Below are positions 4,378 to 37,872 of a stretch of DNA of 37,872 bases, one piece after another (positions within the stretch are counted from its first letter, which is position 1; each line of letters starts with the position of its first letter). A model generated the notes under the pieces. The model saw nothing but the letters and a program-made list of their open reading frames with translations. It made no database searches and was not told the DNA's origin. A program made the translations under genes and the position numbers. The DNA is from an uncultured Alphaproteobacteria bacterium (GTDB taxonomy: Bacteria > Pseudomonadota > Alphaproteobacteria > UBA11222): contig CALAQW010000028.1 in the NCBI GenBank assembly GCA_937888955.1, positions 1-37,872 on the forward strand, read 5' to 3'.

Positions 4378-4424
4378 TCGCGGATCGGCAGGCGCTTGCT
4401 GTTGCCGACATATACAGACGACCC

Positions 4425-4645
4425 TCGCGGGAGAGATCGGGCGCAGGTTCGGGGATTATTGTCCCGGACAGAAAGTACCCGACGCCGAAGGAGCAACCGC
4501 CCCGGAAACTCTCAGGCAGCCGGACCGCAAGGTGATGAAACTCTGGAAAGCAGGTGTGCGAAAGCGCGTCTCACCGAAGGGGTAAGCCGCCATATCGCTG
4601 ATGATATGGCCGGTCAAATCTCTCAGGTTCCCGTGACAGAGGGGG
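4425..4645 (+). promoter_or_regulatory. Tandem glycine riboswitch
   Basis: Two consecutive gcvT-type glycine aptamers are present. The first (about 4425-4522) has the 5' GGGAGAG strand, CGCCGAAGGAGCAA, and AAACTCTCAGGCA closing it. The second (about 4538-4645) has ACTCTGGAAAGC, CACCGAAGGGGTAAGCC and AAATCTCTCAGG. These blocks are the conserved cores of the class. The paired arrangement is typical of the tandem glycine riboswitch, which normally turns on glycine cleavage genes when glycine is abundant, and the element sits directly upstream of gcvT. Confidence 0.93.
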
Positions 4646-4724
4646 CAGCCGCGAATGCATGGGGCATTCCCGGCGCTTCTGCGCGATTCCGCCCCCGCGG
4701 CCGCGCCATACGGGAGTTGAGTAT
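4641..4724 (+). promoter_or_regulatory. Expression platform between riboswitch and gcvT
   Basis: After the second aptamer, GGGGGC (4641-4646) can pair with GCCCCC (4691-4696). The alternative GCCGCG (4648-4653) can pair with CGCGGC (4696-4701). A small GAATGC/GCATTC hairpin (4653-4669) sits inside. The two long pairings share bases and exclude each other, as expected of a switch. There is no T-tract. The Shine-Dalgarno GGGAG (4712-4716) lies just downstream, so translational or Rho-linked control seems likelier than an intrinsic terminator. Confidence 0.5.
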
Positions 4725-32462: not shown

Positions 32463-33949
32463 CGCTGAAAATGCCGGCGCCCGAACCGCATATCCTCGCC
32501 AGCCGGGACAATCTGATCGCGAAGCTGAGAAGCATCGTACCCGATGGCGTGATCGATCGCGAAAACGAGTTGCGGCCCTATGAAAGCGATGGCCTGACCG
32601 CTTATGCGCAACTCCCCTTGCTTGTCGTACTGCCCGAAACGGTTGCGCAGGTGTCGGCCATCCTGAAATTATGCGATGAGTTGCAGGTCAAGGTGGTGCC
32701 GCGCGGGGCGGGCACGTCCCTGTCGGGTGGCGCGCTGCCGCTTGCTGACGGTGTATTGCTCGGCATGGCGCGGTTTAACCGGATTACCGATATCGATCTG
32801 GAAAACCGTTGCGTCACAGCCCAGCCAGGGGTCACCAACCTGGCGATTACCGAAGCGGTTACCGATGCGGGGTTTTATTATGCGCCGGACCCTTCCAGCC
32901 AGATAGCCTGTACGATCGGAGGAAATGTTGCGGAAAATAGCGGCGGCGTTCACTGTCTTAAATACGGGCTGACAACCAATAACATCCTTGGCGTCGAGCT
33001 TGTGCTGATGAATGGAGAGGTCATCAGGCTTGGCGGCAAACATCTCGATTCAGCAGGGCTCGACCTGCTCGGGGTGCTATGCGGCTCGGAAGGCTTGCTG
33101 GCGGTTATCACAGAAGTCACCGTTCGCATCCTGCCGAAACCTGAAACCGCGCGCGCCCTGTTGATCGGATTTGCGGCGAATGAGGCAGCCGGTGCCTGTG
33201 TTGCCGAAATTATCGGCCACGGGATCATTCCAGCCGGGATGGAGATGATGGATAAACCGGCAATCCACGCGGCGGAGGATTTTTGCCAGGCCGGCTATCC
33301 GCTTTCAGCCGAGGCGTTGCTGATTGTCGAGCTTGATGGAACCGCCGCGGAAGTTACCGAGTTGACCTCACAAGTCAGGGCCATCGCCGATCGCTGCGGC
33401 GCGCAATCGGTTTCGGTCAGCCAGAATGAAGCCGAACGGCTGTCATTCTGGGCCGGGCGCAAGAACGCCTTCCCTGCCATTGGCCGCATTTCGCCTGACT
33501 ATTACTGCATGGACGGAACGATCCCGCGCGGCAAACTGCCTGAAACCCTGCAACGCATGCAGCAACTATCCGCCAGCTACGGATTGCGGGTCGCCAATGT
33601 CTTTCATGCCGGCGACGGCAATCTGCACCCATTGATTTTGTATGATGCGAACAAACCCGGCGAGCTTGCGAAAGCGGAAGCGTTCGGTGCCGATATCCTC
33701 CGTCTGTGTGTGGAGATGGGGGGCGTGCTGACCGGCGAGCATGGGGTTGGCGTGGAAAAACGCGATCTGATGCCGACGATGTTCGACACGCAGGACCTTG
33801 ACCAACAGCAAAGACTGAAATGCGCGTTCGACCCGGACAGCCGCCTTAATCCCGGAAAGGTATTTCCGACGCTGCATCGCTGTGCCGAGCTTGGCCGGGT
33901 CCATGTTCACGCGGGCAAGACACGCTTCCCGCATTTACCGCGTTTCTGA
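32459..33949 (+). CDS. glcD: FAD-linked oxidase, GlcD-like (glycolate/lactate dehydrogenase type)
   Basis: This 496-residue flavoenzyme of the vanillyl-alcohol-oxidase superfamily has an FAD-binding N-terminal half (VPRGAGTSLSGGALPLADG, CTIGGNVAENSGGVHCLKYG). Its C-terminal substrate domain has FHAGDGNLHPLILYD and GEHGVGVEKRDLM, typical of GlcD and D-lactate dehydrogenases. It oxidises a 2-hydroxyacid such as glycolate. The genes for the FAD subunit GlcE and the iron-sulfur subunit GlcF that normally follow are absent: the next gene is convergent. So it may act alone, or with subunits encoded elsewhere. Its start overlaps the previous gene by four bases. Confidence 0.9.
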   Translation: MTLKMPAPEPHILASRDNLIAKLRSIVPDGVIDRENELRPYESDGLTAYAQLPLLVVLPETVAQVSAILKLCDELQVKVVPRGAGTSLSGGALPLADGVLLGMARFNRITDIDLENRCVTAQPGVTNLAITEAVTDAGFYYAPDPSSQIACTIGGNVAENSGGVHCLKYGLTTNNILGVELVLMNGEVIRLGGKHLDSAGLDLLGVLCGSEGLLAVITEVTVRILPKPETARALLIGFAANEAAGACVAEIIGHGIIPAGMEMMDKPAIHAAEDFCQAGYPLSAEALLIVELDGTAAEVTELTSQVRAIADRCGAQSVSVSQNEAERLSFWAGRKNAFPAIGRISPDYYCMDGTIPRGKLPETLQRMQQLSASYGLRVANVFHAGDGNLHPLILYDANKPGELAKAEAFGADILRLCVEMGGVLTGEHGVGVEKRDLMPTMFDTQDLDQQQRLKCAFDPDSRLNPGKVFPTLHRCAELGRVHVHAGKTRFPHLPRF

Positions 33950-33986
33950 TTCAGGGATCTAAGACGGATATGAACAGCAACGCCGC

Positions 33987-34838
33987 TCAGGCCAGCAGCT
34001 TCGAAACATATCCAGGCAACGCAAAAGCTGCCTTATGTACGGCCGGTGTGTAATATTGCGTATCGAGGTTGGCGCTGCGAAACCGCACATCGAGCTTATC
34101 GGCACTAACCGAACGCAGGGCCTTGTTATCAGTCGCCCAGCCAAATGCCATCGGTCCCCCGACATAGGTAGGCACTGAGGCAAGATAGCAGGACACGTCG
34201 GCAAATATCGGACGCAGGAAATTGACCGTCTGCTGCAATTCAGATGCCTGCATGAACGGTACACCGTTTTGCGTCACCAAAATGCCGCCTTCATTCAAAG
34301 CGGCATGACAACGTTCGTAAAAACTCCTGGTGAACAGGACCTCGCCCGGTCCGATCGGATCGGTCGAATCGACGATAATGAGATCGTATTTCGGCCCATC
34401 CTGTCCGACAAAAGCGTAGCCATCGCCGATTACCAGATCCGTGCGCGGATCCTCGAATGCATCTTTGCAGATTTCCGGAAGATATTTCTTTGAAAACTCA
34501 ATGACGGCAGCGTCGATTTCCACCATTGTCACGGTTTCGACCGTGCGATGCTTGAGTACTTCCTCCAGCATGCCGCCATCGCCACCACCGATAATCAAGA
34601 CACGGCGCACCGCGCCATGCGCCAGAATCGGCACATGGGTCAGCATCTCGTGATAGATGAACTCGTCCCGGGTTGTTGTTTGCAGAACCGTATCGAGCGT
34701 CAGCACCTTGCCGAATTTGGCATTCTCAAACAGCACAAGATGCTGATGCTCGGTCTTGCTTTCATAGAGGATATTTTCAGCACGCAACCCCAGACGCAAC
34801 GCGTCATGAAGTTGTTCGTACCGCCAATCTCCACTCAT
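33987..34838 (-). CDS. speE: Spermidine synthase
   Basis: This 283-residue aminopropyltransferase moves the propylamine of decarboxylated S-adenosylmethionine to putrescine. The S-adenosyl site GGGDGGMLEEVLKH, the substrate-binding Asp in VDSTDPIGPGEVLF, and FIYHEMLTHVP are diagnostic. Length is normal. The start overlaps the speD stop (ATGA), so the decarboxylase and synthase are made together. It is convergent with glcD, with only 37 bases between. Confidence 0.96.
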   Translation of the reverse strand: MSGDWRYEQLHDALRLGLRAENILYESKTEHQHLVLFENAKFGKVLTLDTVLQTTTRDEFIYHEMLTHVPILAHGAVRRVLIIGGGDGGMLEEVLKHRTVETVTMVEIDAAVIEFSKKYLPEICKDAFEDPRTDLVIGDGYAFVGQDGPKYDLIIVDSTDPIGPGEVLFTRSFYERCHAALNEGGILVTQNGVPFMQASELQQTVNFLRPIFADVSCYLASVPTYVGGPMAFGWATDNKALRSVSADKLDVRFRSANLDTQYYTPAVHKAAFALPGYVSKLLA

Positions 34839-35296
34839 AGGCCCCTGCCCCGCAACCTTTCTTCAACGGTCACAACTTCAGGCGCGAATGCCTTGCGCAA
34901 GACATCGACGGCCAGATGCGGCTTGGCGGCACCGCACATAAAGACATCAAATGCGGCAAAGCCATATTCCGGCCAAGTATGCACACTGATATGCGATTCA
35001 GCCAGAACCGCAACGCCTGACACGCCGCCATTAGGCGTGAAGTGGTGCAGATGGATATGCAGTAAGGTCGCCCCTGCCGCAGTCACACAATCACGTAATA
35101 CCGCATCGATATATTCCTTGTCGTCGAGGCGGTGCGCCTGACGCAGGTCAATCAACAAATGCGAACCGGCAAACCGCTCGCCGTCCCGTTCGATCAGGAA
35201 ATCCTTACGCTCTTCCACCTGCTCTCCGGCCGGAAGCACCGGTCTAGGATTTTCCAGACACGGCTCGGCCACCTTCGTGCGCGCCTTGGCGGGCAT
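34835..35296 (-). CDS. speD: S-adenosylmethionine decarboxylase proenzyme
   Basis: This is a pyruvoyl enzyme made as a proenzyme and self-cleaved between Glu and Ser in LAESHISVHTWPEYG (E100/S101 from the start used), which leaves the pyruvoyl group on the larger chain. The catalytic CGAAKPH block follows. It is a class 1B bacterial type. ATG 35296 gives 153 residues, but a TTG at 35350 with GGGAG upstream and a GTG at 35386 are possible; either would leave an N-terminal extension of 18-30 residues. A small AACAAG/CTTGTT hairpin (35389-35405) lies in the leader. Confidence 0.93.
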   Translation of the reverse strand: MPAKARTKVAEPCLENPRPVLPAGEQVEERKDFLIERDGERFAGSHLLIDLRQAHRLDDKEYIDAVLRDCVTAAGATLLHIHLHHFTPNGGVSGVAVLAESHISVHTWPEYGFAAFDVFMCGAAKPHLAVDVLRKAFAPEVVTVEERLRGRGL

Positions 35297-35506
35297 CGTA
35301 TGGAGCTTTGTATCGAGGGTCTGGAATTTATGGGAAAGCGTGGCGGACAATCTTAAATACTCCCGCTGAAATGTGAACGAAAGCACGCAACAAGGGGCGC
35401 TTGTTATGCCCGGAAACCCTAAAGATCAAGCAAAACTTGCCCGGCTTCCCGAGCCAACTCCTGATTTTTAACATCAACCCATTGAGGGGGCTAATAAATT
35501 CCCTTT

Positions 35507-35665
35507 TCAAAACGCGCAAAATTCAATCGTCTTCGCAGCACCATTGCCCCATTCAACAACCGGAGTACCGCCTGACTTTACATCCTTGCGCCGTGCAAAG
35601 CCTATCGCCCCGGCCGCCTTCACTATTAGCCATAAAATTCTGCTGATCCATTGTGGTGCGCTCAT
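35507..35665 (-). CDS. Small putative membrane peptide (52 aa)
   Basis: A 52-codon ORF starts at ATG (35663-35665) seven bases after AGGA. Its peptide (start MSAPQWISRILWLIVKAAGA) has one N-terminal hydrophobic helix, then FARRKDVKSGG and a C-terminal FCAF. The frame is open far upstream (to 36109), but that extension is a low-complexity arginine/cysteine-rich read and not convincing. It is oriented like speD-speE and 120 bases upstream of speD. No homologue is recognised; it may be a small membrane protein. Confidence 0.4.
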   Translation of the reverse strand: MSAPQWISRILWLIVKAAGAIGFARRKDVKSGGTPVVEWGNGAAKTIEFCAF

Positions 35666-35783
35666 GCGTTTTTCCTGTCGGGCGTTCCTGCAAGCACCAC
35701 TCCCGATTGTCATCCCACGCCAAATCTTACATTCCCTATACACCTGATGGAACCATGGCAGGCATGACGCGCCGGCAGACATC

Positions 35784-35813
35784 AAATGCCGCCTCCGAAA
35801 ATGCCGCCTCCGA
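35784..35813. repeat. 15-bp perfect tandem repeat in a gene-poor region
   Basis: AAATGCCGCCTCCGA is repeated exactly twice (35784-35798 and 35799-35813), followed by a partial TGCC. It lies inside 35666-36119, where I see no convincing gene. On the minus strand one frame reads GGGI-F-GGGI and then a stop. Confidence 0.85.
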
Positions 35814-36119
35814 TGCCAGGCACAGCAACATTTTGCTGCAGTGCAGATACCGTCAACTTCTCCCTTAACGCCAGCACTCAAAGTACCGGCAGGCCACCCG
35901 CATAGCGGGAACTGCCTTTCACCCTTCACCCACGAACGCCGCACAGCCTGCATATCTCTGTACGACTCCTGCAAATTCGTGATGTGCAGCTTCAAAGAGA
36001 TAATTTTGGTGCCCACAGTTGTCCAGATGTGACAGGCCCGCATGAAGCTGCGTCCGAGCATACTCCTGATGCGCCGCATCTGACCTTTAATGCGCCGCAT
36101 CTGGTGCAATTCTACAACA

Positions 36120-36457
36120 GTTGCCTAAAATCAAATAGTCATTAAAAAAAATGTCTAGACTCATTATTAGACTGTATATTAGTTGTCATAAAAATTACCT
36201 TTTATTGAATAGGTTATCGAATTTTGGGCAAGACGGGTTTAGGAAGCTCGAGCAAAGCGCGGCAAAAGAACAAATGCGCATCCGCTGGAGCAGCCCCCCG
36301 ATTGCTGGTCAGACAGTGCTGAAATTGTGGTTGTGAGGCCCCTCAAGCTGTTTGCAAGAACTTCTGGTCAATTGGACCGCGTGCTTGCGAACTCGATGCT
36401 CAGCTAAGCATCGAATCATCCTTGGTGACAATTTGTCATCATGCCTCACACAGACTT
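36120..36457 (+). ncRNA. Candidate structured RNA or leader upstream of the DUF1302 gene
   Basis: An AT-rich stretch (36120-36230) has promoter-like elements, including a TTGTCA (36183) about 16 bases before TTGAAT. Structured sequence follows. TCGATGCT (36393-36400) pairs with AGCATCGA (36407-36414), and TGACAATTTGTCA (36426-36438) is a palindrome. No ORF here is convincing. The whole is capped by the strong terminator at 36458-36492, so a transcript of about 200-300 bases should end there. Either an independent small RNA or a long leader with attenuation would fit. The exact 5' end is a guess. Confidence 0.35.
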
Positions 36458-36492
36458 GGCGGCTTGCTACTCATAGCAAGCCGCCACTTTTT
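36458..36492 (+). terminator. Strong intrinsic terminator ahead of the DUF1302 gene
   Basis: GGCGGCTTGCTA (36458-36469) and TAGCAAGCCGCC (36474-36485) make a perfect 12-bp stem with a CTCA loop, followed by ACTTTTT. It points in the plus direction although no plus-strand gene ends nearby. It therefore terminates a non-coding transcript or attenuates the downstream gene, whose ATG is 72 bases further on. Confidence 0.88.
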
Positions 36493-36564
36493 CGCAATTC
36501 CCGCCAAGCTGCCCATTGCCCAAAAGTTCGCGGTTAAAAAAAGCAACTTGCATGGGAGGCATGT

Positions 36565-37872
36565 ATGTCAATTCAGAACGCAAAACGCAGCGCCAGCTCC
36601 ACTGGCTCATCATCTCGACAGAACCTCAGAACCGGTGTGGCAATTGCCGCTATCGCTATTGCCGTCGGCGCGCCCGCGGCAAATGCGGCGGAATTTCAAA
36701 TGGGAGAGGTTCAGGGTTTCGTCGATACGGTCGTATCGGCCGGCGCCTCCATCCGGACAAGCGCGCGAGATTGCGAAAATGTCAGCTCCGCCAATGGCGG
36801 CTGTCCGGACCTGGATGCAGCCGGCCTGTTGCCCTCGAATGGCGGCGCAACCAACGGTGATGACGGCAATCTGAACTATGATCAGTGGGATGTATTTTCC
36901 GCGGCCTTCAAGGCGACATCCGAAGTGCAGCTGGGCTGGCGGAACTTCACCGCTTTTGCGCGCGGCACAGCTTTCTACGATCCGGCGGTGACAAATACCG
37001 ATTTCCGCAATCTGGAAGATGCCCAGCGCAGCGAAATCGCGCAATCGGCGAAAATGCTCGACTATTTCGTTTCCGGCAGCTTTGAAGTCGGCAATCAGCC
37101 ACTTGATGTGCGTGTCGGCAACCAGGTGATCAGCTGGGGCGAAAGCACCTTCATCCAGAATGGCATCAATGTCATTAATCCCATCGATGTCGCAGCTGCA
37201 CGCAAGCCGGGCTCTGAAATCAAGGAATTCTTTACTCCTGTGCTCGCGGCGCATGCCTCACTTGGTCTGCCCAACAATCTGAGCCTTGAAGGCTTCTATC
37301 AGTTCAAGTCCGACAATATCGTCCCTGATCCGTCTGGCACCTTCTTCAGCTCTGCTGATATTGTCGGCCGCGGCTCGCAGCCGCTGAAATCAGGCAGCAA
37401 TGATTTTGGCGATGACATGGTGCAGGACCCGGTGATCGGCGGGGTCGCGGTTCCCTCCAACCCGTTCGCTGTCGGATTGCCTGGCCAGCGGACTTCCGCG
37501 CATATCGCGCGCGCCAATGATGTGAACGCCAAAGATGGCGGTGAATATGGGCTTGCCTTGCGCTACTATGCGGAAAACTTCAATCAAGGGACGGAATTCG
37601 GCGTCTACTTCCTGAATTATCACTCCCGGCTGCCGATCCTTCAGGTTTCGATGTCCAATCCTGCAGCAGCCTTCAGCAACCAGTCCGGAACGAATTTTGG
37701 CGCACTCGGCGCAGGTTTCGGTTTCGGCACGGGCCCCGGCGGCGCACTTGTTGATGCGTTCGAGGTTGGCGAAACTCTGTGTAACCTCGCCATCGCGCCC
37801 GTTGCGGGCGGTGCGCCAGTGTCTTTGCGTGCGCCTGGCGGACGCGCCAACTGGGTCCTGAGCTCGACGCGA
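36565..37872 (+). CDS. DUF1302-family outer-membrane protein, partial
   Basis: This frame is open to the right edge for 436 codons. GGGAGG lies five bases before ATG 36565. A cleavable signal sequence is visible (about residues 20-43, VAIAAIAIAVGAPAANA and then cleavage). The mature start EFQMGEVQGFVDTVVSAGASIR and blocks such as VRVGNQVISWGESTFIQNGIN and INPIDV are typical of DUF1302 proteins, which look like outer-membrane beta-barrels often paired with DUF1329 lipoproteins. The role is unknown, with hints from relatives toward uptake of hydrophobic compounds. It lies directly behind a structured region and terminator. The C-terminus is outside the window. Confidence 0.85.
   Translation, partial: MSIQNAKRSASSTGSSSRQNLRTGVAIAAIAIAVGAPAANAAEFQMGEVQGFVDTVVSAGASIRTSARDCENVSSANGGCPDLDAAGLLPSNGGATNGDDGNLNYDQWDVFSAAFKATSEVQLGWRNFTAFARGTAFYDPAVTNTDFRNLEDAQRSEIAQSAKMLDYFVSGSFEVGNQPLDVRVGNQVISWGESTFIQNGINVINPIDVAAARKPGSEIKEFFTPVLAAHASLGLPNNLSLEGFYQFKSDNIVPDPSGTFFSSADIVGRGSQPLKSGSNDFGDDMVQDPVIGGVAVPSNPFAVGLPGQRTSAHIARANDVNAKDGGEYGLALRYYAENFNQGTEFGVYFLNYHSRLPILQVSMSNPAAAFSNQSGTNFGALGAGFGFGTGPGGALVDAFEVGETLCNLAIAPVAGGAPVSLRAPGGRANWVLSSTR

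Follow-up and report, generated by a model that had tools for sequence, protein, structure and literature searches.

A clade-restricted, multi-copy family of probable leader RNAs tied to DUF1302 genes in uncultured Alphaproteobacteria

Described alphaproteobacterial RNAs and the DUF1302 locus

Members of the alpha-R8 group of small RNAs (sRNAs) consist of a weak hairpin, a 10-nt single-stranded anti-Shine-Dalgarno (anti-SD) stretch, UUUCCUCCCU, and a terminator (PMC12559287). The rhizobial sRNAs AbcR/alpha-r15 and NfeR1 carry anti-SD motifs that block the ribosome sites of mRNAs for transport proteins (PMC8844928). Terminator-type leader attenuators and riboswitches combine a structured leader and an intrinsic terminator before one gene family. 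Among the proteins with the DUF1302 domain, AmeA was described as a predicted outer-membrane protein adjoining an RND efflux transporter (PMC6394551). The window analysed here, a stretch of 37,872 nt, is contig C28 of the 3.0-Mb genome of an uncultured alphaproteobacterium (G000) and ends within a DUF1302 gene, for whose protein neither a solved structure nor an NCBIfam name was found.

A genuine structured RNA, absent from existing catalogues and ending in a terminator, is encoded by the segment upstream of this gene (36120-36492). It resembles alpha-R8 (RF00519, suhB/MmgR; Caulobacter SisA-D) in its alphaproteobacterial host, its multi-copy siblings and the succession of a hairpin, a single-stranded anti-SD stretch and a Rho-independent terminator, which was found in all copies as P3, AUGCCUC and the terminator. 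It differs in its seed, CAUGCCUC rather than UUUCCUCCCU (UGCCUC stands at that position in all eight copies), in its additional P1 and P2 domain and in being always located upstream of DUF1302. Identity with suhB/MmgR was rejected, as the scores against RF00519 were 22.7, 21.7 and 13.0 bits, compared with a gathering cut-off of 41, and the motif fails; of the six genomes of the bacterial family, five contain true alpha-R8/suhB members at other loci. A candidate anti-SD motif is also shared with AbcR/alpha-r15 and NfeR1, but these are not linked in cis to a single target family, and the AbcR motifs, CUCCUCCC and UUCCCCUC, are unlike the seed of the leader RNA. The likeness to attenuators and riboswitches lies in the structured leader and terminator before one gene family, the difference in the lack of a conserved antiterminator or known ligand and in a very narrow distribution. 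Neither the segment nor six loci with the other copies gave an Rfam match (release 15) above the gathering score. The Rfam scan of the window detected only glycine riboswitches, a tandem at 4418-4641 (+; 63.5 and 34.4 bits) ahead of an ORF at 4659, and no tRNA or tmRNA gene was found with ARAGORN.

Structure, conservation and distribution of the RNA

The structured, conserved part of the segment is 36303-36492 (+), with its onset near 36303 and not at 36120, and consists, from 5' to 3', of hairpins P1-P3, the unpaired CAUGCCUC and a terminator composed of a 13-bp stem and a short U-tract (Table 1). The original prediction, made from the DNA letters, had described a perfect 12-bp stem with a T-tract; the terminator was confirmed, and its perfect stem was found to be 13 bp long (36457-36469/36474-36486, loop CTCA, followed by CTTTTT). 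This was the longest stem among the 12 terminator-like sites in 33500-37872, compared with 5.4 +/- 2.1 such sites in shuffled sequences. The predicted 8-bp hairpin, P2, is exact (TCGATGCT/AGCATCGA), and the 13-nt palindrome at 36426-36438 (TGACAATTTGTCA) makes up most of P3. P1 is composed of outer arms at 36350-36358 and 36384-36392 and an inner stem at 36365-36369 and 36375-36379, with an internal loop, CGCGUG, that is invariant in the eight-copy alignment. Folding of 36200-36492 gave a z-score of -5.1, with none of 200 shuffles as stable, and a z-score of -2.6 was obtained for the segment without the terminator. The pairing of UGUGAGGC with 36443-36450 was seen in the predicted folds of the window copy and of G001_C5a; other copies have a local hairpin, P0, in place of this strand, with only 65% of cells paired.

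Table 1. Features of the leader RNA and its DUF1302 gene in the window
Feature	Position	Strand	Evidence
AT-rich zone, probable promoter/operator region	36125..36215	+	Sequence; bins 36126-36150 and 36176-36200 with 84-92% identity to G001
Conserved core of the leader RNA	36303..36452	+	95-98% identity with G001; covariance-model matches in 4 genomes
5' strand UGUGAGGC	36332..36339	+	MFE fold; can pair with 36443-36450 (GCCUCACA), hiding the anti-SD
Hairpin P1	36350..36392	+	Standard pairing of the arms in 100% of cells, 8 copies
Hairpin P2, the predicted 8-bp hairpin	36393..36414	+	Double-sided changes in 5/8 pairs; 95% of cells paired
Hairpin P3, including the 13-nt palindrome	36423..36441	+	Pairing in 100% of cells; double-sided changes in 2 pairs
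Candidate anti-SD CAUGCCUC	36440..36447	+	UGCCUC invariant in 8/8 copies (alignment)
Intrinsic terminator, 13-bp stem and U-tract	36457..36492	+	8/12 aligned stem pairs with double-sided changes across copies
Terminator-to-ribosome-site spacer, weakly conserved	36493..36554	+	51% identity (60% in second orthologous pair)
Ribosome site GGAGGCATG, DUF1302-specific signature	36555..36563	+	Counts of motif GGAGGCAYGNRTG in 6 genomes
DUF1302 gene, truncated by contig end	36565..37872	+	PF06980, E = 4.1e-103

As had been stated, no gene leads into the segment, the nearest upstream gene being speD on the opposite strand (speD and speE are divergent), and no credible ORF was found, since none of at least 80 aa lies within 36120-36492 and the P2 loop of a homologue that is otherwise about 98% identical differs by a 1-nt indel, which argues against coding. 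The AT-richness of the proposed promoter-like zone (about 36125-36215) was borne out, but no sigma-70 consensus match was present on its + strand. Just upstream of this zone, at 36069-36103, two exact copies of the direct repeat ATGCGCCGCATCTG lie 21 nt apart.

When the segment was compared by BLAST with 96 related genomes, it was found only in G001, a genome of the same genus. At this orthologous locus, identity is 98% in the RNA core and 100% over the 45 nt before P1, compared with 83% for the DUF1302 gene, 83-84% for the flanking genes, about 75% for the upstream DNA and about 51% for the spacer. The terminator is altered with its stem kept (GCTA-CTCA-TAGC to GCC-GTGACA-GGC). In a second orthologous pair (G000 C110 and G001 C10), the region from P1 to AUGCCUC is 95% identical, the gene 81% and the spacer 60%, and the P0 region is variable (47%). 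With a spacer identity of 51-60% against a core identity of 95-98%, there is no evident sign of a conserved promoter following the terminator.

The first covariance model (R1), based on the two orthologues, matched relatives in the other genus of the bacterial family and sites before further DUF1302 genes of the same genomes. In total, eight copies were found in four of the six genomes of the family, representing two genera, and each comprises P1, P2, P3, the invariant UGCCUC and a strong terminator. Every one of the eight immediately precedes a DUF1302 gene on the same strand, a short distance from its start codon. Paralogues with their own copy occur within one genome (C28 and C110 in G000; C5a, C5b and C10 in G001; C203 and C40 in G004), and at one locus of G001 (L004, contig C5, 346-3614) a tandem of two RNA-DUF1302 units occupies one strand, both units having their own copy of the leader. 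A second model (R2), run over the six genomes, recovered the same eight copies, at E values between 1e-25 and 1e-37, with no further match below 0.1; no copy was found away from DUF1302 in these whole genomes. G003 and G005 have DUF1302 genes and no copy of the RNA, the latter genome being only 64% complete. The assemblies of these genomes are at draft level, metagenome-assembled in the cases that were identified, and contig ends truncate many of the DUF1302 genes; owing to the common descent of the eight copies, copy counts do not represent independent events.

No credible match was obtained in about 700 other genomes sampled across the class and the phylum. The best match outside the family, in G180, was rejected because it lies inside glnA, those in G345, G212, G249 and G089 because they are weak and omit or break most of P1, and that in G451 (E = 4.6e-4) because about 0.2 such matches are expected in about 400 genomes. 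A pattern match in a viral contig (L040), whose likeness is limited to the short P1 pattern amid AT-rich viral sequence, was likewise discarded.

Covariation was evaluated in the eight-copy alignment for 46 named pairs, with 500 shuffles and with partners slid by 1-3 columns as controls. Pairing was retained in 91.8% of cells, compared with 81.8% in the shuffles, and 20 base pairs were changed on both sides with pairing kept; none of the 500 shuffles attained the observed pairing, double changes or covariation score. Sliding the partners lowered pairing to 32-41%, a lenient control given that the structure was partly derived from the same sequences; the double changes are the stronger evidence. 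Most of these are in P2 and the terminator, the P1 pairs being mostly invariant or wobble. The covariance search called for in the original prediction yielded a multi-copy family with compensatory changes, and the RNA strongly withstood the test of conservation and compensatory change by which it could have failed.

The UGCCUC element and the DUF1302 gene types

The unpaired CAUGCCUC is the exact 8-nt complement of GAGGCATG ahead of the DUF1302 start, and the invariant UGCCUC, placed between P3 and the terminator, is complementary to the GGAGGCAYG ribosome site. This site, which keeps a constant spacing to the start codon, is nearly confined to DUF1302 genes: the motif GGAGGCAYGNRTG had 17 matches in the six genomes, of which 13 were starts of type-A and type-B DUF1302 genes (see below), one was another gene start and three were apparently due to chance, and the backwards-pattern control had none. 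The complementarity between AUGCCUC and the ribosome site is suggestive of pairing. Taken copy by copy it is weak, with shuffle P values that ranged from 0.01 to 0.58; it extends over only 6 nt in G001_C5a and G004_C40, and whole-leader folding predicted strong pairing in only three of the eight copies. No matched compensatory change between seed and ribosome site was seen across the copies.

Three types of 5' region were distinguished among the DUF1302 genes of these genomes. Type A combines this RNA with GGAGGCAYG ahead of the start, type B has a short leader and GGAGGCACG without the RNA, and type C has neither the RNA nor GGAGGCA. The type-B genes (G000:C165, G001:C7, G002:C126, G003:C26 and G005:C205; loci L024, L026, L025, L019 and L029, respectively) share a different conserved short leader, with a TTGACA-type promoter, UGAGGCAU near the presumed 5' end and GGAUGGAGGCACG before a GTG start. 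In G000-G005, where many contigs break inside the DUF1302 genes, the DUF1302 protein bodies cluster by genus and not by leader type, which suggests recombination between DUF1302 paralogues, with the cassettes of leader and signal peptide staying distinct. Upstream of the leader RNA at two loci (L012 771-788 and L013 1641-1658, - strand), the perfect palindrome GTTAGTAATATTACTAAC immediately precedes a promoter-like TTGACG-N17-TARCGT site in both genomes and is likely to be an operator of those DUF1302 units.

Possible modes of action

The original prediction had left open an undescribed small RNA or a leader attenuating the DUF1302 gene. The leader is favoured by the association of every one of the eight copies with a DUF1302 gene, which, together with the leader position and the unconserved spacer, suggests that DUF1302 may be expressed by read-through of the terminator; attenuation itself is unproven, as no conserved antiterminator was found and the 5' arm of the terminator pairs upstream no better than shuffled arms in all eight copies. 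The most likely role of the leader RNA is to throttle genes of the DUF1302 outer-membrane protein family, and that the segment is a cis-acting DUF1302 leader, by whatever mechanism, is considered rather probable. Transcription would probably start in the AT-rich zone and proceed through P1, P2 and P3 to the terminator, where most polymerases would halt and free a short RNA, the remainder reading through into DUF1302. In the read-through RNA, AUGCCUC could bind the ribosome site GGAGGCAYG and reduce translation, a step that is advanced tentatively, at less than an even chance, and P1-P3 may keep AUGCCUC exposed or hidden in response to some signal or protein; in the copy of the window, AUGCCUC could alternatively be held by UGUGAGGC. 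The type-C genes, which lack both the RNA and GGAGGCA, were counted for the cis leader, and the type-B genes, which have GGAGGCACG without the RNA, against it. The co-location of the RNA with DUF1302 could also derive in part from duplication of whole units.

A serious, though unlikely, rival is a trans-acting, multi-copy family of anti-SD sRNAs whose genes happen to precede DUF1302 and whose AUGCCUC would pair with the ribosome sites of sibling DUF1302 genes, so that making one DUF1302 protein would silence the others; the motif targeted in DUF1302 mRNAs would be GGAGGCAUG. The alpha-R8 layout of the 3' half (hairpin, exposed anti-SD and terminator), with its 22.7 bits against RF00519, and the near restriction of GGAGGCAYG to DUF1302 starts are consistent with this reading, as are the seed of the window copy, which among the eight type-A ribosome sites binds seven more favourably than any of the window's 27 other gene starts, and the additional match provided by UGAGGCAU in type-B leaders. 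However, the four other seeds tested do not exceed background, the complementary motif persists in the type-B genes of G003 and G005, two genomes in which no RNA copy was found, the stretch from terminator to gene shows no evident conserved promoter, and co-oriented linkage in eight of eight cases is unusual for trans-acting sRNAs. As the 3' half is built on the plan of an anti-SD sRNA, the terminated product of a cis leader may also act in trans; a network in which the terminated leader RNA of each unit silences all sibling DUF1302 mRNAs through the shared AUGCCUC seed, enforcing choice among recombining outer-membrane paralogues, is considered improbable.

The leader position, the conserved multi-hairpin domain with the invariant internal-loop bases CGCGUG and the covarying terminator would suit a classic ligand-binding riboswitch or protein-binding attenuator, with P1-P3 as sensor, the terminator as expression platform and a DUF1302-related substrate as inducer. 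A classic riboswitch is unproven given the lack of a conserved antiterminator, and the confinement to one bacterial family and the few invariant residues outside P1 and AUGCCUC also make this explanation improbable. Passive insulation, in which the terminator would block upstream read-through and the hairpins merely protect the RNA end, was already disfavoured and is considered very improbable: a strong terminator does precede the gene, but the divergent speD and speE leave nothing to be blocked, and a core conservation of 95-98% with covariation far exceeds the needs of an insulator.

The cis leader remains the favoured reading of what is a new clade-restricted, multi-copy family of leader RNAs tied to DUF1302. 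This structured RNA family, absent from Rfam and defined by sequence, covariation and gene linkage, provides a first handle on the control of DUF1302 proteins, whose domain is of unknown function. If the seed model is true, the family would bridge cis-acting leaders and trans-acting anti-SD sRNAs, and its multi-copy siblings would illustrate an RNA family spreading together with its target.
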